Below are positions 19,937 to 48,863 of a stretch of DNA of 64,000 nt, piece by piece (the stretch's first letter is position 1; every line of letters starts with the position of its first letter). A model generated the notes under the pieces. That model worked only from the letters and a program-made list of their open reading frames with translations. It was not told where the DNA came from and did no database searches. Origin of the DNA: Marasmius tenuissimus. Its lineage: Eukaryota; Basidiomycota; Agaricomycetes; Agaricales; Marasmiaceae. The stretch spans positions 744,001 through 808,000 of the forward strand of contig JAQOTA010000057.1 of assembly GCA_029532415.1 (NCBI GenBank), written 5' to 3'. The translations under genes and the position numbers were made by a program.

Positions 19937-20089
19937 ATCCCTATTATTCAGACTTGAAAGGCACAACGCAGGGGGTTGATTGACAAGAAGGACAGACATT
20001 GACAAGCCAGACTGACCACAGTAAAGACAAACAGCTTTTTTGGGTGATATGATTGCGATGTATGAAATTGATGAGATCTGACACTCACT

Positions 20090-20186
20090 TGTAGTACTCG
20101 TGGATGAGTTGCACTGATCACTGATGACTAAGTGACTCACCAGCAATGACCCCAAACCAAGTCCAATAATTTGCAACTAGGTCCAT
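20090..20186 (-). pseudogene. Truncated copy of the small gene at 44272-45050
   Basis: Exon 1 (20186-20141, MDLVANYWTWFGVIAG) and its donor GTGAGT are intact. The intron then jumps directly to the last codons of exon 2 (ACGAGTACTACAA/GTGAGT near 20090-20101), so a large internal deletion removed most of exon 2. The later exons are not found. Confidence 0.6.
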
Positions 20187-20981
20187 ACAGGATGCGTCTT
20201 TGAGGCTCCAAAGATGTGTTTTGCACTTACGAGGTTGCGGGAGGGAAGGAAGGGCTTTGGTTGACAATTCTGCAGGATCTTTGGGTTTTAGCGCGGGATC
20301 ACTGTGAGAGGGTGGCGTTGCTTGATTATTGTTTCTATGTTTCGGTAGGCCAGAATACTATTCTGTCACATGATCTGCAATGGGGGGGATATGCAAAATT
20401 TTCTGAACGAAGGTGTTCTTGCCGTTCCCTCGTCTTGGGAATTTTTTCCAAGCAAATTATAGTACTCAAGGGCTTGCTATTACCTCTGCTAGCTCAGAGG
20501 TCAAAGGGAGGAGGAATGAGGCCCAAAAAACATCGGAATTTTAGACATGATAGAGATGTAACAGCTCAGGAACAGTCGTTAATCGCACCAAATACACAGT
20601 AACAAGTACATAGTCATTTGAAGGTATACTATCAGTGTCTATGCACCAAACTTTTGGGTGGGAGGGGGCAAGGAGCGAGCTTGATGGAGCAAATGAAACT
20701 GACAGAGAATTGGTGGGTGATGTACATGAGCCTTTGATTCCATCACCTGGTCAGTCTGCCAAGGGCCACCAGTTGTGACAAACCGTGACCCAAAGGAGTC
20801 GCAATTCTTGTTCCCTTCTCGGACATTGCCGAAACAATGTGGGGAGAAGGGAAAAATCCTAGAAAATCAGGTTAAGCATTCTCTAGTATATAAAATGTTT
20901 CTATCATGAAGAAATTGCGATAGGTACAGTGTAGGAGCGAGGGAGGAAAATTTCACAAAAAGTCGCAATTCCCCCTCCCAG

Positions 20982-21077
20982 AATAGTGGGTGAGGTGGTT
21001 ACAGCGTCCGACTGTTATGGTCTCAACTTTTGTTATATTTCAATTGGAAGGTCGTGAGTTCAAGCCTTACTGGGGCA
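20982..21077 (+). pseudogene. tRNA-Asn relic
   Basis: Matches the tRNA-Asn(GTT) genes at 47366 and 50632 (ACAGCGTCCGACTGTTA, intron, then GGAAGGTCGTGAGTT), but the 5' acceptor strand is altered (TAGTGGGTGAGG instead of CCCATGGCTGAG) and the T arm has changes. The acceptor stem cannot form, so it is a pseudogene. Confidence 0.65.
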
Positions 21078-21588
21078 GCCAGTCGATTAATTTCCTAATT
21101 TTTACCCCCCATGAATTGTGCTGTCCTGATTGTCTACCGGGCACTAACAGTACGTCCCCCACAGTCCACCCAAGCAGAGTTTGGTCATGTAGTTAAAAAA
21201 AGGACCTCCGAACGTGGTCATTGAACTTTATACCTGATGAATGGTGTTGTTCATTGTGTCTTTTTTTGTCTCGAATCTACGGTCAGTCTTCAATCCTGAC
21301 CCCAAGACACTCAAACACTTTCATTCATACTTGGGTTTTGTGACTTGTCAATGTCACACTGGGACGGAATCAAATAGGTTACCAACTATATTGATGCTTC
21401 TTTAGGTCCACGTGGGTTCTCCAAGGAACAGCTTGCTTCTCCAAACCTCACATTTGAGAGGGATTCACATTGACCCCTCCCCCACAGGCAAGATAAAACC
21501 CTGTTCTCCGAGGCCCAAACTAGAGAAATGGTGGTATGATTTCAATATGTTATTGGGATGTGTGTGTACAATGATATAGGGCTGAAAC

Positions 21589-22112
21589 TTTGAACATGTG
21601 GTTACCATGTGATACACTTTATTGATGTGTTGTTTACACGTCTATTATTTATAGACTCTTTCACTACGACACTTGCACTCATATGAAAGATCCTGTACTT
21701 ACTCAGACGGACTCTGTAGTTAGTCAGTACTCACACCTTATCTCTATGGTTTATAACAAGGTTCAGCTTTGCACCCAATAGCATTCAAAGCTGACTGAGC
21801 TTTCTCTCTAGATTACTTAGATAGAAAGCTAGTATGATTATGCCTACTTACTCACTCTGCTCTTTGAGCACTTATACTTACTGATATGCAATATGTACCA
21901 TATGCTATATTCTCACTTACCTATGTTCTATGACTTGTAGATGAACAAGGACTCTTGTATAAAAGCTGGAGACTTTGTGTCTCAAATCTTTAGGACAATC
22001 TACTCGATTATCACCTCTAGCAAGCATCTACTAGAACACAAGAATTCTCTTGTAGTCAATATGTGAGGTTTTAGTTTCATCTCACTGTGCATTTAACTAT
22101 GCTGGCTCAATA
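21589..22112. mobile_element. Solo LTR-like insertion, copy 1 (524 bp)
   Basis: Nearly identical to 38298-38822. Flanked by the 5-bp duplication GAAAC (21584-21588 and 22113-22117). The ends are short and imperfectly inverted (TTTGAAC... / ...GGCTCAATA). It contains a TATAAAAG box in CTTGTATAAAAGCTGGAG near 21955-21972, as expected of an LTR promoter. No internal retrotransposon sequence is attached, so I read it as a solo LTR. Confidence 0.75.
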
Positions 22113-23359
22113 GAAACAGGTTTTAGCGTGGTCACCATGATTCTTGGACCCGTCCTTGGAAGGAGATGACATGATGAGCAGCGAGGGGGAATTGATATAC
22201 TCATACAGGGATTCAGTTGGAAAAGCAGGAGGTAGCGCCATTTGACACTATAGTCTCCCCATTCATGAGCTTAATCTCTTCAAACCCATTTGGTCAATAG
22301 TTTTTTCCGTTCAGTGTTTTGACAGGCAAAAACAAGGTGATGAGTCCACTCCCACGGCTGTTGAGTTGGGGTAGCTTATCACTATTCGAACCTCCCCACC
22401 AGGAATTTAACCCGACCTCCCCCGGCGAGACAACCACGAACGAATTGGCCAAGGTAATAGTTATCGTCGAGAAAACCAACTCTTGACAGTAAAATACCAT
22501 AAGTACCCAAAACCATCAGCGGAATAAGACCATGTCCTGCATAGTTCTCACTACAAACTGGAATCAGGTGTGCAGTGGTAAGGAGGTGTAGCAACATACA
22601 TTACACGGGTCTGCTCACCCATCTTATTTATTTTGTGAAGAGAACACCTGTCATGGACGAGATGTGGCAAGAAACAGGGGGATTTGGTCAAACCCATCTA
22701 CGAGTAGTACCATTGTTCAAACTTTGAGTGATTCTCCTGTTTGTGTCTACAGCTGTCATGAGACAGATGTAAAAGAGGGGAGACCGAATATAACTACCTA
22801 TCAGCCATAGGTTTCTCCACTCCAGGGCCCAAAGGATAGGCCCAGCTCCGTATCATTCAACTCCATGTTTTTGCCGTTTGGTAGGGAAGCAATATAACCT
22901 GTGCATCTCTTTCCCCCGTTACATCCCCCAGTCAAGTCTCCTGCTGTGGATTTCAATCTGTTTTCCTCTACAGTGTGTGTGTGTACTACACACACACCCT
23001 CATCGTACACACTGGGTATGATGAGAGCAGAAAATGAGTTTTAGCATACGCGATACTCATTGTAGGTTTTAGACCGTTGCCATAATCCTCCAAGAGAACA
23101 CTGGTTTGAGAAGAGGTGACATGACAAGGGTAATTGATATATTTACTACATACAGGAACTGAACCCAGTAAACCAGCAGGTCTACCATGACACCATATTC
23201 TCCCCTCACTCTCAGATTTGAAGGGGGAGAAGAAGCCCAAGACGGATCAAACCACCAGCCATAGAACTACTTCTTACTGCTCAACCCCATGTTTTCACCA
23301 TTTGGTAGGTCTGGACTTGTGAAATGATATACCCCACGACTTTCATTCCTTCATTACGT

Positions 23360-23457
23360 GCCCCATGGCTGAGTTGGTTACAGGGTCCAACTGTTATGTC
23401 CCAGTTCACCCTAGATATTTCAATTGGAAGGTTGTGAGTTTGAGCCACACTGGGGCA
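23360..23457 (+). pseudogene. Decayed tRNA-Asn in duplication copy A
   Basis: Counterpart of the intact tRNA-Asn at 47366-47461. The acceptor strand GCCCCATGG and GGGGCA are kept. CGTCCGAC became GGTCCAAC, TCGGAAGGTCGTGAGTTCGAG became TTGGAAGGTTGTGAGTTTGAG, and CTCAC became CACAC. Most differences are CG to TG or CA, and they break the anticodon stem and the B box. Confidence 0.7.
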
Positions 23458-23953
23458 GCTAAGAGTCACTGTCTGCACTTTTCTGTATCTCTCCCATACT
23501 TGTTCATATCATATTCAAAACAACTTGGGCTTGGTGGCCTGTCACATACAAAGTATGTACTAGTTGAACAAAAAGACTTCCTGGCATTTTCGACGCATTA
23601 CAGCGGTAATAATAATTGTAAACATGTTTTCATCTTTTCTCATTCTGTGCCTTTATCTATACCAAACACCCTGATTTGGAAGGAGTAGAGACATGTGTCA
23701 TTCAAGGCAGTGGCTCCGCCTCACTGGGGAAGGGCCAAGGAGTACTTTTCTTCATATCATTGGGAAAGAGGGGTACAAACACCTAGTATCCAAGTGTGAA
23801 ATTTAGTCCCCTCAAGCCGAACACCAAAATTTGAGTCCTGTACCTTTGCGTGTCGTTTAGGCGTTGGGCCCACCCAGTCCAAATTGGGGTAAATTGTGTT
23901 TGGTATAAATAATGGCACGGAATGAGAAAAAATGAGAAAGCATCTACAATAAT

Positions 23954-24049
23954 GGCTGTAAGAGGGAATCGAACCCCCGGCGGGTCGAGTCCCAGATATT
24001 GACTATTGCCCTATGGCAACAACCCAGGTTACCATTACCCCATTAATGC
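23954..24049 (-). pseudogene. Decayed tRNA-Gly in duplication copy A
   Basis: Counterpart of the intact tRNA-Gly(GCC) at 48105-48199. The B box and 5' acceptor GCATTAA are present, but the 3' acceptor strand reads TTACAGCC, so the stem no longer pairs. The anticodon stem carries a G-to-A/C-to-T type change (GGGTTG for GGGTCG). Confidence 0.65.
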
Positions 24050-24219
24050 TTCTTTGCGTGTACGTGTATATAGATATCATGTATCAACTTGAGTATGGAA
24101 GCAAATGACATATGAAGGTCAGTCTGAGTGAGTATTCGAGTGTAGATTTTATATGTTTCCGAAAGAGCTAGTAGACAAGGAGATGAGAAAAAAGATAAGC
24201 TTTCACTGAAAACTCCATC

Positions 24220-24320
24220 TGCCCCAGTGAAGCTCAAGCTCATGACCTTCTGATTGATAATCTGCACTGCGTTTTCCTAGTGATAACAGTCAGACGCTGT
24301 AACCAACTCAGCCATGGGGC
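24220..24320 (-). pseudogene. Decayed tRNA-Asn in duplication copy A (minus strand)
   Basis: Counterpart of 48372-48464. The acceptor stem is intact. The T arm reads CATGAGCTTGAGCTTCACTGG instead of the intact TTCGAGCCTCAC form, and the anticodon stem has lost pairing (CTGAC/ATCAG). It carries a longer intron. Confidence 0.65.
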
Positions 24321-25058
24321 ATGTACCAGTTCAGAAAATTGAGGCAATGAAGTATTGCCCTCTTATTTCAGATCTGTAGTTCGAACAGATGATAAAACAG
24401 GCAAGAGAATTCTGATTATTCAGTACATACGCTGGCCTATTTATACAGAAAGAGTACCAGGCAGCCAAGTCTGTTGCTACAGTGTCTGGTGGATACGCTA
24501 CAAGAGATAAATACTAAACTACACTGTCTGGTGGATACTACAAGTCTGTCTGAGTCAAAGTCAGTCTGTATGTGGAGAGAAGTGGGGAGAGCACCGGTTG
24601 ATGTTCTCGGCCAGGTACCAGTATTAAGGATGTGGAAGGGAGCATATGGCCCGCAGGTCCGGGGAAACATACAAGTCCAAACACCAGGATAACAGCAATA
24701 TAACACCACAAGTGGAATTGGAATAATGGTGTCATTGTCGTCATCTGCAGGATAGGTTTATTTCCGACTCACTTCTCCCAATCTGAGTCAACTTGTCCAC
24801 AAACCTCCACCTCGGGTTCCCCACAGCCCCTTTTTGATGTTCCTTGGGGGTATCGGTATTGTCATCAACAACAGTAACAGTGAATGGGATATGGTCCAAT
24901 CCAAGAGCTCCGCACCACACAATTGCTAACAGTTATGCGGGGAGCCAGTCTTTGGTTTCTAACTACCACCATCACAATGAGTCCATGAAGACATTGACAA
25001 ACTGGAACAACATGACTATCACGGCCTAGAAATATGGACAGCGCAACTCAGAATGGTA

Positions 25059-26693
25059 CAGTCGCTCAAAAAACTGGCCAAATGTTGGGGTACCCCATAA
25101 AGAATGGCCCATATCTCCATCATGAAGCATGATTACCTAATACTCTAGATACACAAAATGGACCCTGAAAGCATTACTTTCAGGTGCAGTTTACCCCATT
25201 GGATCAGCTCCCAGTGTGGAGATATTCCACATTCAAGTCAAAATTGCATTTGGCCAGTTTTTTGACCGGGGGGTCAAAATCAGTAATGTTGAGGAGTAAT
25301 TCGATTGTGTTGTAAGATATGACATCAGTATGACTTCAGACTTTTGACAGCATCATCTATGATGTCTTGAGTGACATCATGTACTCCACTGGACATTATA
25401 AAAGGCTTGAGCATCTTTGAGATGGGGCACCAACATGCGCCCCCTCTCTAAAGCTAAACAAAAGCTTATCCTGGAACTTGCTGCAGATCCCAGCCTTTCT
25501 GCCAGGGATATTGCAGCCAAAGTGCATTGTAGCAAGACCACAGTCACCAACTACATCAACAAACTGCTCCCTGACAAGGAGAACCCTTGTGGTGGCCGTC
25601 CCAAGAAACTCAACCCCTGTGATGAACACCATATTCTGACACAAATCTGCACTGGTGCTTCCAAGGATGCCTCTCACATGACCCAAACACTCAACACTGT
25701 CCTGGACTCCCCTATCACTCCACAAACCACCAGAAATCTCCTTCACAAGCATCATATGTATGCCACAAAACAGAAAAAGAAACCACTACTCAAGCCATAC
25801 CACAAGTGGGGCAGATTGGCATGGGCACGGAAGCACATGAACTGGACAGTGGAAGACTGGAAAAGGCTTCTATTCACAGATGAGTCCAAGGTGAACCAAT
25901 ATGAGTCAGATGGGAGGTCATATGTGTGGAAAACAAAGGGAGATCCACTACTCGAGCAGGAGGTGAAGGAAACTGTGAAGTTTGGGGGAGGGAATATAAT
26001 GGTTTGGGGATGTATGAGCTGGAATGGTGTGGGGCAGTTGGTGGAGGTTGAAGGGAGGATGGATGCACAGCAGTATGTGGACATTTTGGAGGAGCATTTG
26101 CCAATTAGCAGGGAAAAATCTCAATCTTTCTTCTGACGAATTCATCTTTCAACAAGATAATGACCCCAAACACACATCAAAATTGGCCTCCAAGTGGTTC
26201 AAAGACAATGAAATTGAGGTTATGGAGTGGCCTTCCCAGTCTCCTGACCTCAACCCCATTGAGAACCTTTGGAAACACCTTAAAAGTCGACTTACAGGCT
26301 ATGATGCACCCCCTTCTGGAGTTTATGAATTGTGGGACAGGGCAGCAGAGGAGTGGGTGAAGATTGAGGTGGAAGTGTGTCAGAAGCTGATAGAAAGTAT
26401 GCATAGACGGTGTGCTGCAGTCATCAAGGCCAAGGGAGGCCATACAAAGTACTAGAATGTAAAATCCACTGATTTTAACCCCCCAGTCAAAAAACTGGCC
26501 AAATGCAATTTTGACTTGAATGTGGAATATCTCCACACTGGGAGCTGATCCAATGGGGTAAACTGCACCTGAAAGTAATGCTTTCAGGGTCCATTTTGTG
26601 TATCTAGAGTATTAGGTAATCATGCTTCATGATGGAGATATGGGCCATTCTTTATGGGGTACCCCAACATTTGGCCAGTTTTTTGGGCGACTG
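25059..26693 (+). mobile_element. Tc1/mariner element, 1635 bp, long TIRs
   Basis: Both ends read CAGTCGC(T/C)CAAAAAACTGG inward and are flanked by TA (25057-25058 and 26694-26695). The inverted repeats run about 210-240 bp each (for example CACACTGGGAGCTGATCC on the right is the inverse of 25206-25223). It contains one transposase reading frame. The pre-insertion sequence is preserved at 48880-48890 in copy B, which confirms the boundaries. Confidence 0.92.
25435..26455 (+). pseudogene. Tc1-family DD34E transposase, one frameshift
   Basis: N-terminal helix-turn-helix (LSKAKQKLILELAADPSLSA, then SKTTVTNYINKLL) and a GRP(K) hook, followed by the DDE core: LLFTDESKVNQYE (first Asp), FIFQQDNDPKHTSK (second Asp) and QSPDLNPIENLW (Glu). 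Thirty-four residues separate the second Asp from the Glu, so it is DD34E, as in Tc1. At 26105-26115 (CATTTGCCAATTAGCAG) the frame shifts by one base; no splice sites explain it. The catalytic residues survive on both sides, so inactivation looks recent. The first ATG in frame is used as start. Confidence 0.88.
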
Positions 26694-26880
26694 TACATTT
26701 CTTATTGCTGGCGTCAGCATAGCGATATTTCTGATGGTTTTTGGCTCGTTTTTCGATACCCAACAGCAAGCACAGGCTTTGAGAACCTGATGGTAGATTT
26801 TATAGCGGGGACTATCGGCATATGGACACGTTTGGCCTGGTCATTTTCATTTGCAGGCTAACAAACCCATTCGTTGTAAA

Positions 26881-29460
26881 GCGCCACTCGCGGTGTATAA
26901 TAAAATCTAACTCGTAGGTCAAATCCTCCCAACACTCAAGAGTGTAGCTGAAGGGTGCGGGAATCGGGGATCGGCGTTGATCGTAGGTTCCGCTCTTAGC
27001 CAGACTGCAATAGTAGGCTGAAGGAAATCTGACTCAAGAAACTATCCAACTAAGGTAGCTTCGCCTCTGAAACCAGTTCGGAGGTCAAAAGTGGGGTTCG
27101 GAAGAGAGGTTTATAGGTTGTTTCGGGGAGTGTAGAGTTTGTTTGGTGCTTCGGAAGTGCGTTCTTAGGCTTCAACTAGCTTCAGAACCACTCGAACAGC
27201 GAGGGGCAACAAGACAATCAAATCAAACAATGGCAATAAGACTCCAATCAAGTCTGTCAATGACCGAAGACCAACTGTCAACGGCGAACAATATCCTCAG
27301 CTCAATTAGCTTCGGAGGTTCAACAATAGCTCAGCCAGTCAAGTCAGTGTCGCAGACAAACAATGCAAAGTCAAGGTCAAGCAAGTGTTCAATGGATTTT
27401 CTAGGTTTGGGCAAACAAAGTTCTATTCCGTTCTAATGTCTCTCCAGAAGCGCTCCCGAGTCAACTGACTACCCAACAAGTGGAATAGCTTCGTATCCTC
27501 TGAATACTAATCGTACGGATTGCTTGGGGATTCTTGATGAAAACCCCACTGTTTATATACTCTAGGATGCTCTAATTCTACCAAATTGTACAAATATCGA
27601 ATAAACCATGCCTCGGAGGCATAAACTACCTACTTTGGAATATACTTGGAGAGTTTTGTGTTTAATCTACGCTTTTGAACCCCAAAGTCAAAACCAATAA
27701 TTTGTTTCGGAAGTATCATCAGCCTTGAACATTCTCTAACATTCTTTTCTTCCGGGTCTCTCCTATCAATGGTTCCGTTCTGCCTATCTGCCTCCGCAGC
27801 ATTGATTCTCCGGTTCTAGACCCTTCAATAGTCATAGGTCATCCTGTTCTGTCTGCCTCCGAAGCATATACTCCCTTTATCTGAAGCAAAGTACGTGCCT
27901 CCGAAGTGCTACTAGATGCCTATATTCATGGAGTTACCCAGCCGTTCTTAGACAGGTCGATGTCCTTCCATAGCTCGGATAATTCTGACGTCCTGCCATC
28001 CATATGGCCGCCCCACTATATCCAATCTTGGTGCCTTGGATACCGGGTAATAGTTCAATGGTTCAGCCAGAACTCCTACTCGATTCTTTGGTACACCATT
28101 CCTTTCTTTCTAGTCCCTTGCCTCCCAGTGCAGTTGAGCACTGTGTTTTGCCACCAGCACCAACTATGCCCTTAGTACAGTCAATATCTCCATGTACGAG
28201 TACAAGGGAGGTACCTTGACGGTGCAACCCCTTCGATCACTTCTCGATCATTGTTTAGCGCCCAGTGCCTGGTTCGGATCCACGCCTCCGAAGCGCTAAT
28301 TTCCTAGTTTCCGAAGTAAAATTTCCATTTCAGCGGCCAGTCCAGAGGTCAGTAAAAGCAAGTGCTAGGTTGTCCCAATTCCTTGCTTACTTTTCCCCGA
28401 GCGTACTATGGCACGCTTGCATAACATTGAAGACCACTTTCGCAACTTACTCTATAGTAAGCCTTTCTACTTTTCTAGATTCCGAGGCGGCCTTCTGACT
28501 TCCTCTCCAGAGTTGTATAAGCTCTGGTGGTATCCAGAAGATTACTCTGATAAGATCAAGGAGCGCCGCATCATCCTACCCATTCCACTCGACGCAGAAC
28601 GAGAAGCTATCCTCGGAATCATCTTCCAGCAGTTCTTCCTCAGTTGCCACAGATCCGTCTACTGGGGCTACGTGATTCTTACGACATGATCCAGGACGAA
28701 ATCTATCTCTGCAAGGACACCTTTGACCACTTCATTCCTCACGACGCCAGGTCTGTCATCAACATGGTCGCCGAGTCCATTGCTCGAGTTGGTTTCCTTG
28801 ACTTCAAAACCGCTCGCACTCCTGGAGCCGTCAACGCTTGGATCGACGCCGTCGTCAGCTGTGCTGAGTGCCCAGCGCCTCCGAAGCTTGACTATACCAA
28901 GCTCTCGTTCTTCAAGTACTCCCCTGTCATGGGTCGTTGGCTCTCTCAATCCTTTTCTTTCTATAATCCTATTTTATGCGATCCATTCTATACCGATTAT
29001 CTAGATCATGGAACCTTCATTGATTCTTATTATCCTGAAGATTCCGACGTAGATAATTACTTCGGTTGGGATGAGGTAGCTCTAGCCAATATGGATGACT
29101 AGCGTAACCTGTAGTATACCTAGTATACTTGAATCAATCATGCTTCCAAAGCAAGGCCTCGACCTTATACCAAGCTTCTGAGGCTCGACTTAGTCTCGCT
29201 TTCCAACCATCCATGCTTCCGCGGTGACCTCCTCTGTCTATCCATACTAGTACGGGTCTTCGTTAAGTCTGATTCTGTTATTCTAATCCTTAGTACGATG
29301 CCTCCGAGCCACTGGAGATATTCCCTTGTTATGACTACAGGTCCTAGTCGTGCCTCCGAAGTGATACTTTCGTCAGTTATACGACTCCTACAGTTTTCAG
29401 AGATAAGGAGAGACGCCTCCGAGGCGCTATTCTCTCCTTATGCTAGGATCTGAGCCTTTT
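26881..29460. repeat. Palindrome-studded segment, unclassified element
   Basis: The motif GCCTCCGAAGC and its variants (GCTTCGGAAGTGC, ATGCCTCGGAGGCAT, ACGCCTCCGAGGCGC) recur about twenty times, for example at 27148-27160, 27309-27320, 27608-27622, 27853-27867, 27895-27909, 28282-28297, 28875-28889, 29350-29364 and 29413-29427. The segment starts where similarity to copy B of the duplication stops (26878). It ends near a hairpin whose 11-bp arms (ATAAGGAGAGA / TCTCTCCTTAT, 29403-29441) enclose one palindrome. An orphan reading frame lies at 28408-29102. Terminal repeats were not identified, so the element class is unknown. Confidence 0.6.
28408..29102 (+). pseudogene. Orphan protein inside the palindrome segment (one frame change)
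   Basis: Frame 1 from ATG 28408 (MARLHNIEDHFRNLLYSK, then ELYKLWWYPEDYSDKIKERR) and frame 3 to the stop at 29102 join smoothly if one base is gained or lost near 28636-28645 (…FQQFFL / LPQIRLLGL…). The combined product is about 230 aa. It is acidic at the C-terminus (YYPEDSDVDNYFGWDEVALA), rich in Tyr/Phe, without membrane helices or a motif I recognise. The codons look coding-like. It could be a retroelement gag-like protein or the product of an unknown DNA element. Function unknown. Confidence 0.4.
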
Positions 29461-30173
29461 ACTAGCCGCTCGGGACTCGCTCTAGTACTCGTATTACCTA
29501 GTCATTTTCATTTTCTTTTCCTCCCATACCTTCTTTGTCCGACGCTACTGTGCCCAACGAGATGCCTTCTATCTCAATCCATTGGAGGAGTCCTAGTCGA
29601 ATCCAGACTGGATTACAGATGCCCAGGTTTGCGAGCTGTCCGAATCCAGGGGCCAGCAGACTGTTCCCTTTCGTTGGTTCCATCCAGGCCTTTTCTACAA
29701 CATGCCATAGCCACCTGATATGTCATCATGATGATTGAGATTTCCTTTGAGCTGTTTTGTCCAACCCTATGCAATGCTAAAGCGTCTGAAGAAGAATCAG
29801 GCTCAAATGTCCAAGTGATGGGGAAGGCCACTGTAGAGAAGAAACAGCACGGTGCCCCTTTGACAGGCAGCCTGAATGGTGATCAGTCCCACGCGTTGAT
29901 TTGTCTCATGTTTCTGTCCCAAATACCTAGACACTCCATCCAGAGCCAGTACTGATCCCCAGTGAAACCCGGTGACAAGTCCAATTGGGTAGGACAAAGT
30001 TTGATGGCTCTGGATGTTAGACAGAGAGTTCAGACAAGATGTATGACTTGCATAGAATTTTTCGATATCTTGAAAGATCAGCTGGCTGAAACAAAAAAAA
30101 ACAATGCCAAGTTGAAGGCGCCAATGGGAATGAACTTCAACTTGAACAAATCTCAACAATCCCCCCTGACGTC
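29461..30173. other. Left flank of gypsy element, no gene seen
   Basis: Several open stretches occur on both strands, but none has a recognisable domain or a splice model that closes. The 5-bp ATCAA at 30174-30178 is the left target duplication of the gypsy element. Confidence 0.45.
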
Positions 30174-30178
30174 ATCAA

Positions 30179-30404
30179 TGTAAACATACGCTGTGCTTGT
30201 TTATGCATTGTTGTTCTCTGTTTACATGCCAACTATATATAGTCGGCTTCTTGACACGTACTTACTTACTTCTTTTCTTACTTTTGTACTCTCATCATCT
30301 CGCCTGTCCATAGCTTCTCATCACTTACAGAACACGGCTTGGTCCTCTCTAGCTTTCCTCTGTGTGATCCTGACGTTGAGGTGAGAACAGTGTGTTCTCT
30401 TCCA
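30179..30404 (+). repeat. 5' LTR of gypsy element
   Basis: 226 bp, TG...CA. Contains a CTATATATAG box near 30233, a likely TATA element, in a sequence otherwise nearly identical to the 3' LTR. A handful of substitutions separate the two LTRs (CATGCC/TGCGCC, CATCTCG/CATCTTG, GACGTTGAGGTG/GATGTTGAGGGG). Confidence 0.95.
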
Positions 30405-33400
30405 CTTTTTTTTAGATTTGACTTGAGCTTGTTGTCTTTCATTTCTTACACTGTCTTGTTGTTGTTGTCTCACCCTTACATTTTTCCTCACTTTCTTTCA
30501 TTTACTCGTTCAGTTTCCTTTTTTCTTGTCGTGACCTTTCTATTCTTCTACTTTCCGCCTTGGTTACCGCTTTCGCAACCCCTGTTCGTCTTTGTACCCG
30601 TTTCTGTGCGCATATATGCGTGTTTTTCTCTTTTAATTCTCTCAGTTTACGTGTTATCTGCTGTTTCCATTTGTTTTTTGTCCCCGCCATTGAGGTTTGC
30701 CTCTAATTTCATTGTCATTTGCCTGTTTTCTCCGTTGCTGCCTGTTCCACTTTACCTGTGCCTTCGCTGTCCTCATTAGTCTCTTTTCTTTTCTTTTCTC
30801 GCCTGTTGCTGTCTGCCGTTGTTCTCTGCGCTGACACATTTTCTGCAGTCTCCTTGAGCGGGATTCACAAACTGGCTTCTCGTACTGGTACTTGATCCAA
30901 GGACAAAACCACCACAACCTCGGGTTCCTCCTCATCTTCTACTCCTTCCACGAGTGGTCCGAAAACCTCTATGCGTTCTTTATTACAGAAACAGAGCTCC
31001 ACATCGCTCTTGTCCTCCGTTACTCCTACTTCCGCCTCTCCTGGTTCAGCCTCTAGACCAACTCACCCTCCTCTCATCACTCCCCAGGCTTCAAATCGTC
31101 TCTCTCCTGTTCCACAATCTCCTTCTCCTCTCACTCCTATCGACTCGTCCTCTTCTGATTCTTCAGACTCCGATTCAGACTCCCCTACATATACAATGCC
31201 TTCCTCTTCTTCTCTTACCTCTTCTTTGGTCATCACTTCTCAGGGCCCTTGACGTGCCCCTCTCATCTCAGCTCATTGTCTCGCATATAACGACTTCAAG
31301 CTCACCCTTCGCTGCGTTGATTCACATTTCAAGTGCAAGTCTATCACGGACAATGCTGAGAAGAAGTTTATTCTCTCTCGTTGTTTCCAAACTCATGACT
31401 CTTCATTGCCAATGAGGTGGCACATGCTCCTCTCTCTTATGGCGAATTCGTGGCTGCTATTATGCCAGAGATCGTGGGTGCCCAGTGGCAGCGCGACCTC
31501 GCCCTGGAATTGCGCTCTTCAAGGATGCTCTCTCAGCAGTCGGCGGCGTTCAAGAACCTTTGGAACAAGGCGGTTGTCATCAACGCTGACCTGAAAGGTT
31601 CAGTTTATCATTCTACCGACGAGTAGATCCAGGAGAGGGTGCACTCTAACCTCATGCCCTCTTTCAAGTATCATGTTGAAGAGAAGGGTTTCGATGAGCG
31701 CTCGGAGTTCAAGAAATGGCTTGAAGGTCTTACCGTGTTGGCCGAGAAGTATCCCAAGTGGCTCTCAGTTCACCGTGATCAGTGGACAAAGAAGGATGAG
31801 GCCCATTTTTATTTGGCCTGCCCCGCCGCTGCCGTTGCTAATCCTACCCCTCCTCCTCCCCCTCCTCCTCAACTGTCTGCTTCCAACTCCAATTCCTCTC
31901 ATTCCCGCTCTACCCCTGGTGCTCGTGCACCTAACTGATACTTGTTGGTGATCAATCGGTCTTTGGATTGCTCGGATCTGGCCACTGCTTCTGCCATAGC
32001 AAATGGTCTCATTCAGTTCCGTATTCCGGGTATGACCCCAGAGGAATGCCAGGTTTACCAGGACCATAACACCTGCTTCAAGTGTCGGTGCTTCTATGCC
32101 GACCATCATGCTGACAAGTGCAGGGACAACACTCCATTGACAGTGGACTACCAAACTATGACTCCAGCTCTCGCTTCCATTGCAGCTGAGGCACATTGTC
32201 AGACAGGTGCTCCAATTTCATTGGACGCCGTCCTCAAACATGCCCTCAAAAAGCCTGCGGTGTCTACAGTTACCACTTCCTCTGCTGTTCGGGATCTCTC
32301 GTCCATCATGGACAGTCCTCCCGCCCCTGTTGTGGCCCCTCAGCCAGTTGCTGCCATCTTTGGTTCTTCCGTTATGCATGTTGATGCTGGTCCCTCCGTT
32401 TACTCTTTCATGTGTTGCACGGTTTCTCAGCCTGCCTTGGTCGGAACCTCGCATGCTGTTGCTGCTGTGATGGAGGAAATTGTTGATGATGATGACGAGG
32501 ATGACAATTATGAGCCTAGCAGCTTGAGCTCTCGTTCTTCATCCCCTGTTTGTGCTGCGAGCGCTGGTGCTGCCCCCGTGGATGATTGTTCCCGCTTCCT
32601 ATCTCCTTCGCCTGCAGGCAAGGGTAAGGGTCATGCCCGCTCTGAGACTGCCAATGCTGCCGCAAATGTTGATCATGCCTTGAAGAAGCCTCGCCCATCT
32701 GATGTGAGTGGTTCACAACCTGTCCCTGACAAACCCCCTGTTTCTGTTGATCATCTATTCTGGACGGCGGCCCTTACAGGGCCTCATGTTGATTTTCCCT
32801 GCTCTTTCTCATGTCTGGTTGACAGCGGTGCTCATATAAACTTGATTAGTCTTGAAGTCGTCTGGAAATTGGGACTACAATCTCTCAAGTTGCCTGAACC
32901 ATTTTTTGTTGGAGGTTTTGACTCTTCTTCTTTGTCTCCTGCTTCTCGTTTGGATTCCTTTGTTTGACTGAAATTTTCTGACCCTTCATGGAAATGGACC
33001 TCACGTACTGTTAAGCTTGTTGTCTCTCCAACCCTCTGTTCTCCTGTTGTACTCGGTCTCCCCTTCTTCCATCATAATTCCCTGTTCATTGACCCTCGCT
33101 GCCGTGGGGTTGTCCATTCAGTTACTGGTTTTGACCTCTTGCACTCTGAATTGTACGACTTCCCTCGTGTACCTGTACCTCCTGTAGCTCCACCTGTGAT
33201 TCACCGTTCAAATAGAGATGCTCAGCGTCATTTTGATCAGCTTTGTCGTGTGTCGGCTGCTGAGGTTCGCTCTCGATTTTGCGAGGTGCTTTCTCAACTT
33301 AAGGCTAGGTTACGCATGCGGAAGGAACGTGGTCTATGTGGCTCTGATGTGGTCCAGCCTCTCAATGTTGTGGCTTCGGTACGTGCTAGGTTGGAAGACT

Positions 33401-36012
33401 TGGCTCATCAGGTTTCCTTGCAGGAGAAGGCTGCCGCTATGGTTCATGACTTTGCAGACGTCTTTGGTGATATTCCACACACAGATACCTTGCCCACGGA
33501 TATTGTTTGCGAGGTCAAGTTTAAGGACAGGCATTGGTCTGTCCGCACTTGTTCTTATGCTTCTCCCAAGAAATTCAAGTCAGCTTGGACAACATTGCTT
33601 CAGAAACAACTTGATTTGGGCCGCATGCACCCTTCCTCTTCTCCATATGCTTCTCTGGCCTTTTTGGTTCCCAAGAAGGATCCCAGTGCCTTACCTCGTT
33701 GGGTTAATGATTACCAGACTCTGAATTCCAACACTGTTCCTGATTGTCACCCGCTTCCTCGTATTGATGATATCTTGGTGGATTGTGCTAAAGGAAAGAT
33801 CTGGGCCAAGATGGATATGACAGACAGCTTTTTTCAGACTCGCTTGCATCCTGACTTGATTCCCCTGCTTGCAGTGAATACTCCATTGGGCTTGTACGAA
33901 TGGACTATCATGCCTCAGGGCTTTCGTAATGCACCGGCAGTTCAACAGTGTTGTGTCACTGCTGCACTGCGTCTGTTTATTGGAAAATTCTGTCATGTTT
34001 ATCTCGATGACATTGTTATTTGGTCAGATTCACCAGAAGAACACGCGTCTCACATCTCCCTGATTCTGCAGGCTCTTCGTGATTCCCGGTTGTTTTGCAA
34101 TCCCAAGAAATGTGCCTTTTTTCAGTTGGATCTGGAGTTTCTGGGTCACTGTATCTCTGGTTGTGGCATTGAGGCTGATCCACTGAAGGTTGAGGCCATT
34201 CGTGCCTTCCCCCGTCCTAAGTCCTCCAAGGAGACTTGTCGTTTCTTGGGGATGGTTCGTTTTCTTGCTGGTTACTTGCCAAACCTTGCAGACTTCACTT
34301 GTGTTCTTACCCCGCTGACTCGCAGTGTGATTGCTCCTTCCCCTCCTGGACTGATGAACACGAGGAGGCCTTTTCTCAGGGTCAAGGAGCTGTTACTCTC
34401 TCGGGAGGTGCTTACCTCCATTGACCATGACTCCCCTGGGGATAACAAGATTTTTTTGGTTTGTGATGCTAGTAACTGGTGCACTGGTGCTGTTCTCATG
34501 TGGGGTCCTGACCTTGCAAATGCACGTCTGGTTGCCTTTGACTCGAAGCAGCTCAAGGGGGCTGAATTGCGGTATCCCGTGCATGAGAAGGAACTCCTGT
34601 CCATTGTTCATGCCTTGAAGAAGTGGTGCTCGGAGTGCTTTGGTATGACAGTTCATGTTCTCACTGACCATCACACTCTTGAGAATTTTGAGAATCAAAA
34701 AGATCTCAGTGCCCGTCAACTCCGCTGGCAGGAATTCATGTTGCAGTATGATCTCGTCATTGCATATATCAAGGGTGTGGATAACGCGGCTGCTGCTGCG
34801 CTTTCACGGATACCTGTTAATGAACTTCCGAGTGAGCATATTGCACGTGCTGTCAAGGCTGGTGCGGACTTTCAGCCTTTCCAGGGCTGGTCGCATGTCT
34901 GCCCGGTCTTGAATATCTCTGCAGACCATGAGTTTCTGGCAAATATCAAGAAGGGCTATCTCTCGGACGATCTTGTGGCAAAATTTTCTGCCCCTGGTGT
35001 TTCTGTTCCTGGTGTTGAGTGCTGTGACGGCCTGTGGTTTGTTGGTGGCCGTCTGTTGGTTCCAAAGTTTGGGTCGCTTCGCGAGAACCTGTATTGTCTG
35101 GCTCACAATAGTGCAGGTCACTAGGGTGCAGATAAGTGTTACGCAATGCTGAAGGACTCATATCTTTGGCCCAACATGCGCAGAGATCTGTACAATGTGT
35201 ACGTTCCTTCTTGTGCACAACAAGTCCCGTACTGAGGGTGCGAAGGGCCCTTTACATCCTCTGCCAGTGCCAGATCACTGTTTTGATTCTGTTGCTATTG
35301 ATTTTGTGGGTCCTTTACCTGATGATGATGGTTTTAACTGCATTGTTTTCATGACAGACCGTCTGGGCGCAGATATCCAAGTGGTTCCCTGCTGCACGGA
35401 CATCTCAGCTGAGGATTTTGCTGTGCTGTTCTTCAAGGAGTGGTATTGTGAGAACAGCCTGCCCCTGGATATTGTTTCCAACTGGGATGAACTTTTCATT
35501 TCCAAGTTTTGGCAATCCCTCAATGCTATGATTGGTGTTTCGCTCAAGATGTCCTTGGTTTATCACCCCAAGACCGACGGCTCTTCTGAACACACTAACA
35601 AGACACTTGGTCAGCAGATTCGTTTCCATGTTGAGCGTCAGCAGAAGGGTTGGGTTTGGGCACTGCCTCTTATTCGCTTTCATCTCATGCTCTCTGTCAA
35701 CGCTTCTACTGGGGTCTCAGGCTTTGAATTGAAAACCGGTCGCATTCCCAGGATGATTCCCCCCTTAGTGGATGCTGCCAGCCTGCCCCTGTCCCTCGCT
35801 GGTACTCAGTCAGCCATTAATGCAGCCTCACTATTGACTCAGATCCAGGAGGTTGAGTGCGAAGCTCATGACAGCCTCACCCTGGCCAAGGTCAATCAGT
35901 TGGTGGCCACTAATCGTCATCGCCACAGTGTGGACAAGTTTGAAGCCTTCACAGGCGGAAGGAATACATGAAAAAAGGTGAACACTGTGCCGCTAAATTC
36001 TTCCCCAGGTTC

Positions 36013-38201
36013 CATCAGGAAAATGGGCTCTGGCGCTGGGACAACCTGGGAAGGCGAACACCGGACCAGATTCCCCAGTGACTCTGGGGACACCAGGTTG
36101 GCCCAGGTTGACCCAAGCCAGCGCAAGTTGCCAGGTTTGCCTGGGAAAACCTGACAGAACTTAGAAAGTTGGCCATCAGAACGGATTCCCAGGACAGGCA
36201 AGGGCAAATTGAGAATAACCTGGGTTTCAATGCAAGTCATGCAAATTGCGGGACATCAGAAATCAAGCGGAGTTCAGTACAAATAATGCAATGATTATTA
36301 CAATCCACAGTCATAAGGGTTACATCTTCTCAACTCAGAGTATTATTTCCCCAATCCCATCTTTTCAGTTCTTTATTATTTGACTCTCCAATTAGTTTCC
36401 CATAATTCTGAGGTCCTTGAATATGTATACGAGTGCTTTAGATGACCAGAGGGCTTTACATGACTTGAAGTTACCTTGTATGAGAAACTTAGGAAATTGC
36501 ATATTATAATCTTTGTATCAATGTCCTTAGACCGTTGTCATGCCATGACACGGGCTGTGTCACCTGTGAGAAGCTGTAAGAATGAACTGTGCAGTTCTTA
36601 TCAGCAATTTCCGAAGCCACCTCTTTGGTCAACTCAACATGGTCCGGCTTTTCACTGCTCTTTTCACATTGATGGTCAATGGGACCTGCCTCACCTCTGT
36701 CTCTATTCACTGTCTGTCTTGGTTTGGTAGGCAACGGGCTATAGGTGTGTATGCTACTTTTTTTTTACTTGAGACTGCTCTGATCAGTTGTAATTTTTTC
36801 CAGTGTCCTAGAATTTTCGACCCAACATGGACACCATGATCCTTAAGAATTTAGCAAGGTCCTAACAAGGTTTTATACTTGCTACTTACACACCACATCC
36901 CCTGGGAATACATGATAGGAAGCCATCACACCCTCCACAGCCCTCACCAATGGTATGTGTAAGCACCATTCAACTGTCCTACAGCTCATCTCATGTCCTT
37001 TTGGGACTTGTTCTATCAGCATCTGGCACGTGAAAGCGACCTGGCACTTGACAGCCATCTCAAGGTGAGTTTTTTTTGAAGTGTCACTGCTCGTAACTAT
37101 GCTGAAGCTAACCGGTTTATGATAGGGAAGTTGCGCAAGCCATAATGAACAACCATTGTCGGCAGTGAGGGGTGGATGAAACTGAGAGGGTGCAAGGCCA
37201 ATGTACTATTCAATGACATGATGTAGGGTAGTTTCTCCTAGCCTGTAGTATATAGATATGAAATACAAGTTGTATTCACTCCTGTTTTTCTAAACTTTAA
37301 TTTCCATGGTGTACACTATTGCGCGCTGCTAGCAATAGCAATAATTGAGTTCTGCTCAAGGCTTATACTCAGACAACCTAGGCCTATCAGCATGTCACTT
37401 CATGTCACCTGCAGACACAAAAAAGATGCCCGAGGTTGGCTTGGGTTGGTCCCGGGATGACCCAGGTTTGGGGATGCGGGAAACTATTTCCTGGGATAGC
37501 CCGGCTAACTTGGTGTCTTTGAGTCTCTAGAACAACCTAGAGCGCCCAGGTTACCCCAGCCCCAGGTAGTGTTGCCAGTGGCTCGGCTCTAGCCGTGGCT
37601 TGAGCAGCTCGGAGCCGGACCGGGCCATAGCCGCTCCGGTAAAACGGTTCACCAAGAGCCATTTTACGAGAGCAGCTCAGAACCGGCTCAGAGCCGGCTC
37701 AGCCAGTTGGAGCCGCCACAATTTCTTTTTTTTTTTTTTATTCCCATCCTTAGACCATCAGAGCCTCTGAGAAATATATAGAATGTATAATAGCTCTCGT
37801 AGATCACAGAAAAATATAAATTTTAGTACAAACACAGTATTTACACCATTGGATACCCTGGCCTTGGCGTGGGAAAAGCGGCCCACCAGTGGGTTGTCAC
37901 GTGCAGGGACAGTTGGGCTGGCAACTGGACCCACAATCACCTCCCAAAATCAATACTTTCAATGAGAATTAGCCCAATTAAAGTTTATATACTTGTTTTT
38001 CAGTGCTTATAAGTCTGTCAATAAAATATTTTTTTGAACAGCTTGAGCCGCAGCTGAACCGGTCAAAGCAGCTCAAAGAGCCGAGCTGTTCCCTGTCAAT
38101 GGCTCCCGGAGCCATGGCTCGGTTGGAGCTGTGGCTCTTGAGCCGGAGCCAAGCCGAGCCGACCGTTGGCAACACTAGCGCCAGGACCCTTTTTCCTGAT
38201 G
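36013..38201. mobile_element. TIR element inserted in gypsy integrase tail (1.57 kb plus nested MITE)
   Basis: Imperfect 38-bp inverted repeats: the left end starts CATCAGGAAAATGGG and continues CTGGCGCTGGG...AACCTGGG; the right end is the inverse, ending CCCTTTTTCCTGATG at 38201. The gypsy frame (KFFPRF before, NGPYEV after) resumes directly, with TC duplicated at the junctions, so the target duplication is about 2 bp. No coding region is seen inside; it is AT-rich in the middle. The superfamily is unknown. It is probably a non-autonomous DNA transposon. Confidence 0.75.
37567..38177. mobile_element. hAT-type MITE, 611 bp, nested in the right TIR
   Basis: Ends TAGTGTTGCCA...TGGCAACACTA fit the hAT pattern. 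It is flanked by an 8-bp duplication with one mismatch (GCCCCAGG 37559-37566; GCGCCAGG 38178-38185). Both subterminal parts are packed with AGCCGG/GAGC words (CTCGGAGCCGG, AACCGGCTCAGAGCCGG, GAGCCGGAGCC). The middle is AT-rich, with a run of T at 37724-37739. No coding capacity. Confidence 0.88.
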
Positions 38202-38297
38202 TCAACGGCCCTTACGAGGTTATTTCCGCTCATCACGACTCCGACACATACACTCTCGAGCTGCCTAATCAGCCCAATGTCTTCCCGACCTTCTACA

Positions 38298-38822
38298 TGT
38301 TGAACATGTGACTACCATGTGATACACTTTATTGACGTGTTGTTTACGCGTCTATTATTTATAGACTCTTTCACTACGACACTTGCACTCATATGAAAGA
38401 TCCTGTACTTACTCAGACGGACTCTGTAGTTAGTCAGTACTCACACCTTATCTCTATGGTTTATAACAAGGTTCAGCTTTGCACCCAATAGCATTCAAAG
38501 CTGACTGAGCTTTCTCTCTAGATTACTTAGATAGAAAGCTAGTATGACTATGCCTACTTACTCACTCTGCTCTTTGAGCACTTATGCTTACTGATATGCA
38601 ATATGTACCATATGCTATATTCTCACTTACCTATGTTCTATGACTTGTAGATAGACAAGGACTCTTGTATAAAAGCTAGAGACTTTGTGTCTCAAAGCTT
38701 TAGGACAATCTACCCGATTATCACCTCTAGCAAGCATCTGCAAGAACACAAGAATTCTCTTGTAGTCAATATGTGAGGTTTTAGTTTCATCTCACTGTGC
38801 ATTTAACTATGCTGGCTCAATA
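38298..38822. mobile_element. Solo LTR-like insertion, copy 2 (525 bp), in gypsy tail
   Basis: Near-identical to 21589-22112. The target duplication CTACA is at 38293-38297 and 38823-38827. It splits the gypsy frame exactly: …FPTFY before, ISELKCYV after. The sequence belongs to a different LTR family from the host element (525 bp vs 226 bp). Confidence 0.85.
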
Positions 38823-39341
38823 CTACATTTCCGAGCTCAAGTGTTATGTCCCAAACAATGACAAGTTGTTCCCTGGACGTGTCCTTGCCGCTCCCTCCCC
38901 GATAGTGGTTAATGGAGTGGAGGAATATATTGTCGACAAGGTGGTCGACTCACGACGCTGAGGTCGTGGATGGAGATTCCTTATCCAGCTCGCAGGTTAT
39001 GGTCCTAGGTTTGATCGTTGGGTCTCATACTCTTCTCTCAAGGGATGTTCAGCTTTGGATGATTGGCTCAAGGCTGGGAATGATGGTCCTTGTGTTGACC
39101 CGGTTCCTGCGGCCCCTCGGGTCCTTGGCTGGTCACCACCTCTGGTGCTCAGCTGGTCGCCTCCTCAAGATTCATTGGATTAGGGACGGAATTGGGTTTT
39201 GGGTTTTATTTTTTCTCCAGTCGATCGCCTGGGAGCAAGGCTCTTGGGGCGTGATTTACTTATGCTTTACCTTATAATGGTTGCTTTTGAGGGTTGTTTC
39301 TCATTCACCCCACCCCGGCTTTGCTTTTAGACGGGTGGGAG

Positions 39342-39567
39342 TGTAAACATACGCTGTGCTTGTTTACGCATTGTTGTTCTCTGTTTATGCGCCGACTATA
39401 TATAGTCGGCTTCTTGACACGTACTTACTTACTTCTTTTCTTACTTTTGTACTCTCATCATCTTGCCTGTCCGTAGCTTCTCATCACTTACAGAACACGG
39501 CTCGGTCCTCTCTAGCTTTCCTCTGTGTGATCCTGATGTTGAGGGGAGAACAGTGTGTTCTCTTCCA
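39342..39567 (+). repeat. 3' LTR of gypsy element
   Basis: 226 bp, same ends and length as the 5' LTR, with ATCAA directly following at 39568-39572. It differs from the 5' LTR at few sites, several of them CG vs TG/CA. Confidence 0.95.
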
Positions 39568-39572
39568 ATCAA

Positions 39573-40942
39573 TCCCGTAAAAGCAAGGACCGCGACATTC
39601 TCAGCGTGTCTGTGCCCTTCCCTCTTACCACCACCACATCGACGGGCTCTGACCCAAATCTGCAGTTCCCCCTTCGTCCATTGACTTTCTCTCACAAACA
39701 CCAGATGTCTAACATGCCTCGATAGTCACAAGCTTCATTTCCTAGTTCTGTTGGCATACCCCCTAAACACACTCAACACGACGAAGACGGCAAAGGTAAT
39801 TTGTCTCAGAGTCTGTGCAACAGTAAAAGGACCGATTTTCCGAGGTTGGGTTCCACAATCCTTTTAGAGACGCAATCAGTATGATTGAAACAATTCGTAC
39901 AAGTTGTCGCCTACCTTGAAATGAGAAGAAATCTGGCTGGGGTAAAAGGGGTAGAATGACACTGCTAGGCAAACATATGTGTCACTCAGCTTTTTATTCG
40001 ACATGATCTGATTCTTGTTGTTCATACAGTCACTGATATCATCCCTGCAGGCTGCAACAACCTGTTCTTAAGCACCGCTGAAGACTCGACAGCCATACCC
40101 TACACGCGAAACAACTCTCGACCCTCAATCTTGTATAGTCCCGTCTGCCCTTCAGTGTATCGGAAATAGTACGCCTGCCTGTTCTTTTCATTTCGGACCT
40201 GACTGATTTGGATCAGGAGGGCTCACGGTCATTTGCACGCTGTTTGGCAGGCCATGGGGGAGATTTCAAGGAGATTTGCATGGTATGTCTTTGCACGATT
40301 CTTTTCTGCCGTGGCACTAATTTGGGCGACATACTGGACCTTGAAATGCCTATTAATGAGCTGAGAGCAGTGGTGTACGCCTCTCGGTGCTATACCACCA
40401 ACAAGCCGCAGTCGGAGTGGTCCGATCTACCATGGGATAGCTGGAGGCAATTGAACGGTGCGTACGAGTATCAGTATCTAGACGGTGCCAGCAGCTTTTG
40501 GCAGTTCTCGTCTATTATGGTAACCACGATGCACCCTGTATTTTACAGTAGCTAGCGCTCTCCGAATTTCGTCGTCAAGTCTCGTCCACCCTCAAGAAAT
40601 CTGACGAACTGTAGCGGGAGCTCGTCAATAGTCAGGGTGCGGCTATTCTCATCTGAGCTCAGACGAGCCCGACGCCGGGTTTCACTGGGACTGATCTCAT
40701 TCAGGCTGTCTCGGGGACTACCTGATGCTCGTCAGAACATCTTGTTGTCTCGAAGATGGCGACACCATCGATAATCTCATCAGGTAAAAGCTGTGTTGAC
40801 AAGATCATTATATGGACTCTCGTTGGGAACGAAGAACTTTGATTCTTTCCTCCAAAGTTAACACAAACGCTCTCATTCTCACTGACGATGCAGCACAGAA
40901 CTATGTATGCCTCTCTCTCACTTGCGTGAAAAGCGTATACTG
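39573..40942. other. Right flank of gypsy; one unrecognised reading frame
   Basis: A plus-strand frame at 40208-40555 (LDLEMPINELRAVVYASRCY, then NKPQSEWSDLPWDSWRQLNG) looks more protein-like than the rest but has no start context or domain I know. It may be a gene fragment. Otherwise no gene is seen. Confidence 0.35.
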
Positions 40943-48104: not shown

Positions 48105-48199
48105 TGCATTAAGAGGGAATCGAACCCCCGGCGGGTCGAGACAAATTGTGCGAAAGCCTCATATGGCAACGACCCAGGTTACCACTACCCCATTAATGC
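48105..48199 (-). tRNA. tRNA-Gly(GCC) with intron
   Basis: Read on the minus strand: GCATTAA acceptor, D arm TGGGGTAGTGGTAACC, anticodon stem GGGTCG...CGACCC with loop containing GCC preceded by T33, an intron of about 23 nt after position 37, T arm GGGGGTTCGATTCCC, and TTAATGC closing the acceptor stem. All stems pair. Confidence 0.88.
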
Positions 48200-48371
48200 T
48201 TCGTTGAATAGACGGGGGTTGTGTATATATAGGTATCATGTATCAACTTGAGCATGGAAGGACATGATAGTTTACAGGATATATAGGTCAGAAAATATCC
48301 GAGCACGATATGTGGAGGCCTAATACACAAGGGAACGACAAAAAAGATAAGCTTTCACCGAAAACTCTAGC

Positions 48372-48464
48372 TGCCCCAGTGAGGCTCGAACTCACGACCT
48401 TCCGATTGAATCCAGGGCAGGGAAATATAACAGTCGGACGCTGTAACCAACTCAGCCATGGGGC
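48372..48464 (-). tRNA. tRNA-Asn(GTT) with intron
   Basis: The same exon sequence as the gene at 47366, on the opposite strand: acceptor GCCCCAT/TGGGGC, anticodon loop CTGTTA, T arm GTGAGTTCGAGCCTCAC. The intron (about 22 nt) differs from the other copies in sequence, as is usual for tRNA introns. Confidence 0.92.
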
Positions 48465-48515
48465 ATGTATCAGTCTACAAAATTAAGGTAATATGACACC
48501 ACAAGAAGACTTGGA

Positions 48516-48830
48516 CTATGGCGTCATGTTTATTTCTGCCTTCGCTTCCCAGGACCTGGCAGCTGGCTTGTCCACATACTTCCACAACCTCCACTCGTAG
48601 TCATACCGAACATGTCCAGCTAATTCAATGTCTCTAGCCAAGTCGCTTATCGGGTTCTCCGCAGCCCCTTTTTGACGTTCCTCGGTAGTATCGGTATCGT
48701 CATCAACAACGGTAACGGGATATGGTCCGATCCGAGAGCTCCGCACCACACATTCGCTAACGGTTATGCGGGGGCCAGCCTTTGGTTTCTGACTACTACC
48801 ACCACGACGAGTCCATGAAGACATCGACAA
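48516..48830 (-). CDS. Possible 104-aa protein, head-to-head with carrier gene
   Basis: An open frame with Arg/Lys- and Asp/Glu-rich sequence (TVVDDDTDTTEERQKGA; then RDIELAGHVRYDYEWRLW). It begins 33 bp from the carrier ATG, which leaves little room for two promoters. The same stretch exists in copy A (24720-25000) with stops. It may be coding or a conserved 5' region of the carrier. No domain is recognised. Confidence 0.3.
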   Translation of the reverse strand: MSMSSWTRRGGSSQKPKAGPRITVSECVVRSSRIGPYPVTVVDDDTDTTEERQKGAAENPISDLARDIELAGHVRYDYEWRLWKYVDKPAARSWEAKAEINMTP

Positions 48831-48863
48831 ACTAGAACAACACGACTATCACGGCCTAGAAAT

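Follow-up and report, generated by a model that had tools for sequence, protein, structure and literature searches.

Sireviruses are plant Ty1/Copia retrotransposons with repeated motifs that, in the section describing them (PMC2829016), number 8–32 short palindromes per element, most of them within the LTR's upper half; the palindromes have a CGG-CCG core in all but one element but otherwise differ in sequence between elements, and nine Sirevirus-type elements contain further copies in the interior. According to one review (PMC7264820), the region between pol and the 3′ LTR is where most extra ORFs of plant LTR elements are found, and those of Retand (TRP28), Grande (gene23) and RIRE2, all plant Ty3/Gypsy elements, are described there and elsewhere as antisense, conserved and suspected to be regulators, with TRP28 thought able to bind DNA (PMC11963269, PMC7264820). 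In the VANDAL elements of Arabidopsis, binding and demethylation by VANC are reported as shown by experiment, and the motifs as growing by tandem repetition (passages in PMC5735166 and PMC10398659). Among animal retroviruses, HTLV is described as having an antisense promoter in its LTR, with HBZ as its antisense protein. The LTR contains all or part of the coding sequence of the accessory proteins HTLV-1 HBZ and MMTV Sag, for HBZ in an antisense, spliced transcript and for Sag in the sense direction.

The window analysed here is a stretch of 64,000 nucleotides on contig C39 of Marasmius tenuissimus, and a first-pass annotation had noted in it a palindrome-rich block around an orphan reading frame, possibly a mobile element with an uncharacterised protein and dispersed binding sites. 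Comparison with the genome (71.06 Mb in 70 contigs) shows that the block is a solo LTR, broken at one end, from a ~20-kb LTR retrotransposon. It spans 26875–29507, the minus strand being the retrotransposon sense, and lacks the final ~70 bp on the right (U3) side. The block does therefore belong to a mobile element, with termini and 4-bp target duplications, but the idea of a distinct system has to be abandoned for that of the LTR of a retrotransposon family, an outcome close to the one that the annotation itself had named as counting against the idea.

A DNA search with a 2580-base query gives at least 44 genome matches (40 of 203 candidates scored), such that the block is without counterpart, as first described, only within the window. 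Among the matches listed, 40 are at least 1.9 kb long, the window's own included, and 37 cover practically all 2580 bases; 32 copies besides the window's have 97–98% identity over nearly the whole query, and in a comparison with 29 other copies the window LTR has 97.5–98.2% identity. The complete LTR is 2.70 kb long, from TGTAAAGCGCC to GGCGCTACA (ends TGTA..TACA), and it is this terminal ..GGCGCTACA that other copies reach ~70 bp past the break at 29507. A more diverged LTR family encoding the same protein was also considered, and the sole candidate fetched (L066) is the same LTR at 93%.

The block begins where a segmental duplication ends, as first noted: positions 26705–26874 match 48898–49069 at 84%, and the paralogous flank ends in TCGT (49066–49069) and continues at the insertion point without the LTR, identifying the left end of the LTR as an insertion boundary. 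The TCGT at 26871–26874 is presumably the left half of a target-site duplication with the right half lost, and has the NCGN form found elsewhere. No counterpart of the right flank is found within 2.4 kb beyond the paralogue's insertion point, so the right side seems to have been lost or replaced. The 32 rows with both LTR ends include 15 with matched flanking 4-mers, 11 that adjoin internal sequence on at least one side and six that are unmatched (two of these, L004 and L058, being one copy). All 15 matched duplications are NCGN (CCGG six times, TCGG three times, ACGA twice and four others once each), and this CG core points to an integrase that strongly prefers CpG targets. One LTR copy (L047, G000:C21:287500–294014) is nested in another LTR, at TCGG within a palindrome-like site.

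The duplicated segment (24000–26874 and 48162–49069) matches in pieces. Its first copy contains, left of the LTR, an element that by eye is Tc1/mariner-like (25050–26702) with 235-bp inverted repeats at 98%; at 48162–49069 both the LTR and the Tc1-like element are absent, and this copy represents the empty site. A Gypsy-like LTR element, also assigned by eye, lies at 30179–39567, with a pol frame at 32968–35124 and 226-bp direct repeats at 96%.

At C7:1071022–1091158 two LTRs surround ~14.7 kb, with CCGC at both outer sides. On contig C5 (G000:C5:3500366–3517011) the organization is a tandem LTR-int-LTR-int-LTR, with copies 7033 bases apart, two identical 4.33-kb internal regions, and ACGG outside the first and last LTRs; the units are 100% identical in the parts compared, indicating that this array is recent. 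The element reads on the minus strand in the order LTR, PBS-like site, gag, pol, ~6.3 kb of post-pol sequence, purine tract and LTR, the interior of the C7 copy having been read except for about 5 kb. The PBS-like site TGGAGCCC.. (TCTGGAGCCC) is two bases from one LTR and the purine tract GGGGGAGA adjoins the other, both on the minus strand.

These structures bear on the suggestion that the repeat is a stand-alone 2.7-kb DNA transposon with the orphan protein as its transposase, a reading that would account for the discrete ends and 4-bp duplications of single 2.7-kb copies. However, internal regions with a PBS-like site and a purine tract are enclosed by a pair and a triplet of the repeat; the target duplication is found beyond the outermost repeats, and the pair has the gag and pol frames between its members. 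The paired repeat structure refutes a stand-alone transposon, which we consider extremely improbable, and the repeat is an LTR.

The gag frame of 705 codons starts at a distance of ~105 bp from the edge of the LTR and encodes a CCHC zinc knuckle just under the Pfam cut-off; it has 20 genome matches, fragments included, five of which are full-length (705 residues) and free of stops. The pol frame is 1566 codons long in the C7, C20 and C40 copies, and its last 275 residues look by eye like an integrase end, for which Pfam and PDB give no support. In a search by Pfam family for reverse transcriptase, RNase H and the integrase core, this pol is not among the matches listed (150 places), and the pol end, when compared directly with the DNA of the window, matches nothing there. 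The retrotransposon is probably Ty3/Gypsy-like, a superfamily placement that we infer. The post-pol sequence (L061:4063–8393 and L030:1–1600) contains several open stretches antisense to gag-pol, one of them cysteine-rich, and two such frames that were scanned match no Pfam family over the cut-off. No published name or description of the family was found in open full-text papers.

The palindrome GCYTCSGARGC has five exact occurrences in the window LTR (26875–29507); allowing one mismatch gives 14 and allowing two gives 22. The corresponding means of 200 dinucleotide shuffles are 0.00, 0.12 and 1.59, and the recurrent palindromic word of the first description is thus far above chance. The intervals on either side (20000–26870 and 29508–40000) contain none within one mismatch. 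The dyad consists of 5+1+5 bases. One further base pair is complementary in nine of 14 sites (p=0.002 against 0.25), and positions farther out are complementary in 2–4 of 14 sites, approximately as by chance. The flanking letters had been said to covary so as to extend the palindrome, and this holds for one base on each side and for the perfect palindrome GCCTCGGAGGC at 27610–27620, which lies within a 15-bp perfect dyad (ATGCC..GGCAT), but the longer extension is not general.

The leftmost palindromes, at 27148 and 27309 (span 27148–27319), have G as the plus-strand centre base, and the four at 27790, 27855, 27897 and 28284 (span 27790–28294) have C. One palindrome (28478) is within the intron of the LTR gene described below and one (28877–28887) within its second exon; five more are located at 29142, 29174, 29300, 29352 and 29415 (span 29142–29425). 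No tandem array of palindromes is seen in 26800–29600. Sites 27897, 28284, 29352 and 29415 have a longer rightward word in common, roughly GCCTCCGARGYGMTA, and the true site may therefore exceed the dyad. Some pairs of sites have 19–22 bases in common, mostly on one flank (e.g. 27894 and 29349, 95% over 20), which is a likeness between sites and not symmetry. The doublet GCCTCCGAAGCCGCCTCCGAAGC has no place in the genome.

Counted within one mismatch, the complete LTR contains 16 palindromes where 0.14 are expected, the 4.33-kb internal region eight (0.39 expected), and a stretch across the pol end and post-pol sequence also eight (0.23 expected); a gag stretch contains two (0.12 expected), the same as its reversed control. 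None are present in the Gypsy-like element at 30179–39567 (0.35 expected), and the remainder of the window has four (2.0 expected). Both the LTR and two of the three internal stretches examined are thus enriched in palindromes, and some of the internal sites sit in open frames and encode Ala-Ser-Glu-Ala. Genome-wide, the exact palindrome occurs 607 times per strand, compared with 179 for a reversed control, and GCCTCCGAAGC at 267 places on both strands, compared with 45 for its control. Of the first 30 of these 267 places, 23 are in the LTR repeat, one (L030) is in the interior of a complete element and six are without a match to the LTR repeat. At 24 of these 30 places GCCTCCGAAGC thus lies in the element, in which the palindromes are concentrated.

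The sites are oriented with respect to the LTR. The leftmost four of the 16 all have G at the centre, and the next 12 have C with the exception of one T; leaving out the T-centred site, the change from G to C occurs at a single point (4/4 versus 11/11, p=7e-4). This point falls between a TATA-like site on the minus strand at LTR position 684 and the start of the antisense gene at LTR position 1534. The TATA-like site, TATATAAA at 27552–27559, is a candidate retrotransposon promoter and has 14 of the 16 palindromes upstream. Since another TATA-like site, with all 16 upstream, is present at LTR position 241, the U3 boundary is uncertain.

Among copies, the palindromes are not more conserved than their surroundings: shared variants are present in 21 of 154 palindrome columns and 213 of 1796 other noncoding LTR columns, and variants of any kind in 46 of 154 and 408 of 1796, with 96% of shifted controls at or below 46. 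CpG columns are the most variable both inside and outside the palindromes, and 26 of the 30 within palindromes vary. This lack of extra conservation is what would be expected if the palindromes had no present function and were a by-product of the way in which the element's sequence came about. The internal sites that simply encode Ala-Ser-Glu-Ala fit the same account, as do the pairs that resemble each other over 19–22 bases in a manner suggestive of the copying of short stretches. It is a tenable but unlikely one, because it leaves a hundredfold excess in the LTR, with flanks shared in a few small families only, and the orientation switch of the centre base to be explained.

Dyad symmetry would also be expected of RNA hairpins acting in packaging, dimerisation or small-RNA production, and one of six folded segments, the minus strand of LTR 850–1550, is more stable than shuffled sequences (z −2.84). 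However, the other five have z values between −0.98 and +0.24, and an RNA hairpin would have to break its centre since the dyad has a single central base. A role as hairpins therefore appears quite improbable.

As the sense strand of the retrotransposon is the minus strand, the orphan frame, on the plus strand, is an antisense gene. The interval 28408–29102, initially taken for a single reading frame, is not open, with a stop at codon 94 of the first frame; the gene here has an intron, and its exon 2 is frameshifted. Exon 1 (MARLHNIEDHFRNLLY..) is at 28408–28456 on the plus strand, is the same in the annotated protein P0003 and similar in P0018 of Marasmius sp. AFHP31, and has its splice sites in the copies. 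The intron (28457–28510, GTAAGC..CAG) has the general form GTAAGY..CAG, with GTAAGT in six of 33 distinct copies, and its residues are absent from P0003, which joins the same exons; P0018 has a similar join. Exon 2 (28511–29102, plus strand, antisense to gag-pol) is frameshifted near 28.68 kb in the window copy, where the remainder is in another frame. The 33 distinct copies, drawn from the 40 better-matching loci, include 27 that are open over 213 codons, three over 205–212, and three, the window's among them, over 50–182.

Nine copies, picked mainly for divergence, give a pooled pN/pS of 0.24 in the true frame, with values of 0.12–0.70 for single pairs. The other two forward frames have 1.04 and 1.17, and the reverse frames 0.77, 1.37 and 0.32. 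In 31 copies, variants at codon positions 1, 2 and 3 number 16, 9 and 35 when shared and 32, 16 and 33 when singletons. The LTR thus contains, wholly within its length and antisense to gag-pol, a spliced gene under purifying selection, and the uncharacterised protein first suspected here is real and conserved, without a recognised domain or fold. An antisense intron would survive retrotransposition because the genomic RNA runs the opposite way, which fits the intron seen. A genome search with the LTR protein gives at least 150 matches (150 of 192 candidates scored), and 107 of the 150 listed, partial matches included, have no internal stop. The gene outnumbers the rest of the element (at least 150 protein matches as against 20 for gag) because solo LTRs keep it.

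A homologue of the orphan frame is on record as PM082_008378 of M. tenuissimus, and two profile searches give 87 and 92 proteins at E ≤1. All relatives are from AFHP31 or M. tenuissimus apart from P0045 (ENA; first search only), and neither search names one outside Marasmius. AFHP31 is described as M. infestans, from cacao in Peru (PMC11053350). Its LTR proteins are of two types that differ in the tail (P0018 and P0014), which are adjacent in one case (P0004/P0040), and there are fusions (P0002 and P0006). The two members of each of the pairs P0004/P0040, P0031/P0059 and P0036/P0086 have adjacent locus tags and resemble P0018 to unequal degrees. Going by the neighbour and fusion members with sequences that were read (P0002, P0004, P0006 and P0040), the LTR gene may have undergone duplication in M. 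infestans AFHP31.

Five LTR protein sequences scanned match no Pfam family over the cut-off, no family is precomputed for the listed relatives, and no relative was found in the PDB. Two AlphaFold models have mean pLDDT of 42.3 and 57.7, and a Foldseek search with the second against PDB and viral models gives nothing significant (best E 2.6). The protein is acidic, with a pI of 4.4–5.7 in six members. Its being the factor that binds the palindromes is possible but unsupported, and is not favoured because it is acidic and lacks a known binding domain and because the palindromes are not specially conserved.

The reading that we consider probable, taken as a whole, is of a truncated solo LTR in which the palindromes are sites for a dimeric factor and the antisense protein is an accessory regulator. 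The palindromes, which would lie mainly in U3, may be bound by a dimeric and probably host-encoded transcription or chromatin factor, as their number, symmetry, orientation and likeness to those of Sireviruses suggest. Such a factor could drive or control both the genomic RNA (leftwards) and the antisense gene (rightwards). The antisense protein may in turn regulate the element's expression or silencing, without a requirement that it bind palindromes itself, a role that would parallel the one suspected for antisense extra proteins elsewhere.

A more specific proposal is modelled on VANC, the likeness being that of an element-encoded protein and dense, element-specific short motifs as the VANDAL accounts describe them: an LTR protein that recognises the palindromes and keeps chromatin open, with both components in every LTR, solo copies included. 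The protein is conserved, the palindromes are dense in and largely confined to the element in what was examined, and the element looks CpG-mutated: in CpG columns 187 of the 211 variant bases are transitions, and elsewhere 306 of 448. Nonetheless this proposal is unlikely given the acidity of the protein, its lack of a Pfam domain over the cut-off and of models that match any fold, and the absence of a tandem array, since VANC motifs grow as tandem repeats, although a few pairs of sites here do have 19–22 bases in common. The LTR protein is set beside VANC by description, without a Pfam family over the cut-off, and VANDAL is a DNA transposon whereas the Marasmius element is an LTR retrotransposon without a tandem palindrome array. 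The broader idea that each LTR is a self-recognition module, combining a spliced antisense gene for an anti-silencing or activating protein with element-wide palindromes through which that protein acts, is also decidedly unlikely; if true, even solo LTRs would keep broadcasting both the protein and its sites.

We prefer the reading of host-factor sites plus an accessory antisense regulator, for which the nearest likeness on the side of the sites is that of Sireviruses. It consists in the many short palindromes of LTR and interior, with 16 per LTR in Marasmius, above the minimum of eight given for Sireviruses. The cores described there are, with one exception, CGG-CCG, whereas the Marasmius core is TCCGA with an odd centre; the Marasmius sites are located also in the pol end, the post-pol sequence and an intron; and the Sirevirus section (PMC2829016) mentions no LTR gene, whereas the Marasmius LTR has one. 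The host genome is fungal and not plant, so that the element is not a member of the Sireviruses and the comparison is one of working alike only. Sirevirus-like palindrome arrays in an unrelated host, together with an LTR gene, would provide a clear system for studying how the expression and silencing of LTR elements are controlled in mushrooms.

What stands out is a selected antisense LTR gene in an otherwise known kind of retrotransposon LTR. It is unusual for an intron-bearing protein gene under selection to lie wholly inside an LTR and antisense to gag-pol, and no description of an antisense ORF wholly inside a fungal LTR was found in open full-text papers. HBZ and Sag belong to animal retroviruses and are likened to the Marasmius gene by layout and not by sequence. 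TRP28, gene23 and the RIRE2 protein share with it the character of a conserved extra protein antisense to gag-pol. The TRP28 domain PF04195 is absent, at the Pfam cut-off, from the five LTR protein sequences and the two post-pol antisense frames scanned. The ORFs of these plant elements are placed between pol and the 3′ LTR in the accounts cited, whereas the Marasmius gene is wholly inside the LTR and is therefore present twice per element and in solo LTRs as well.
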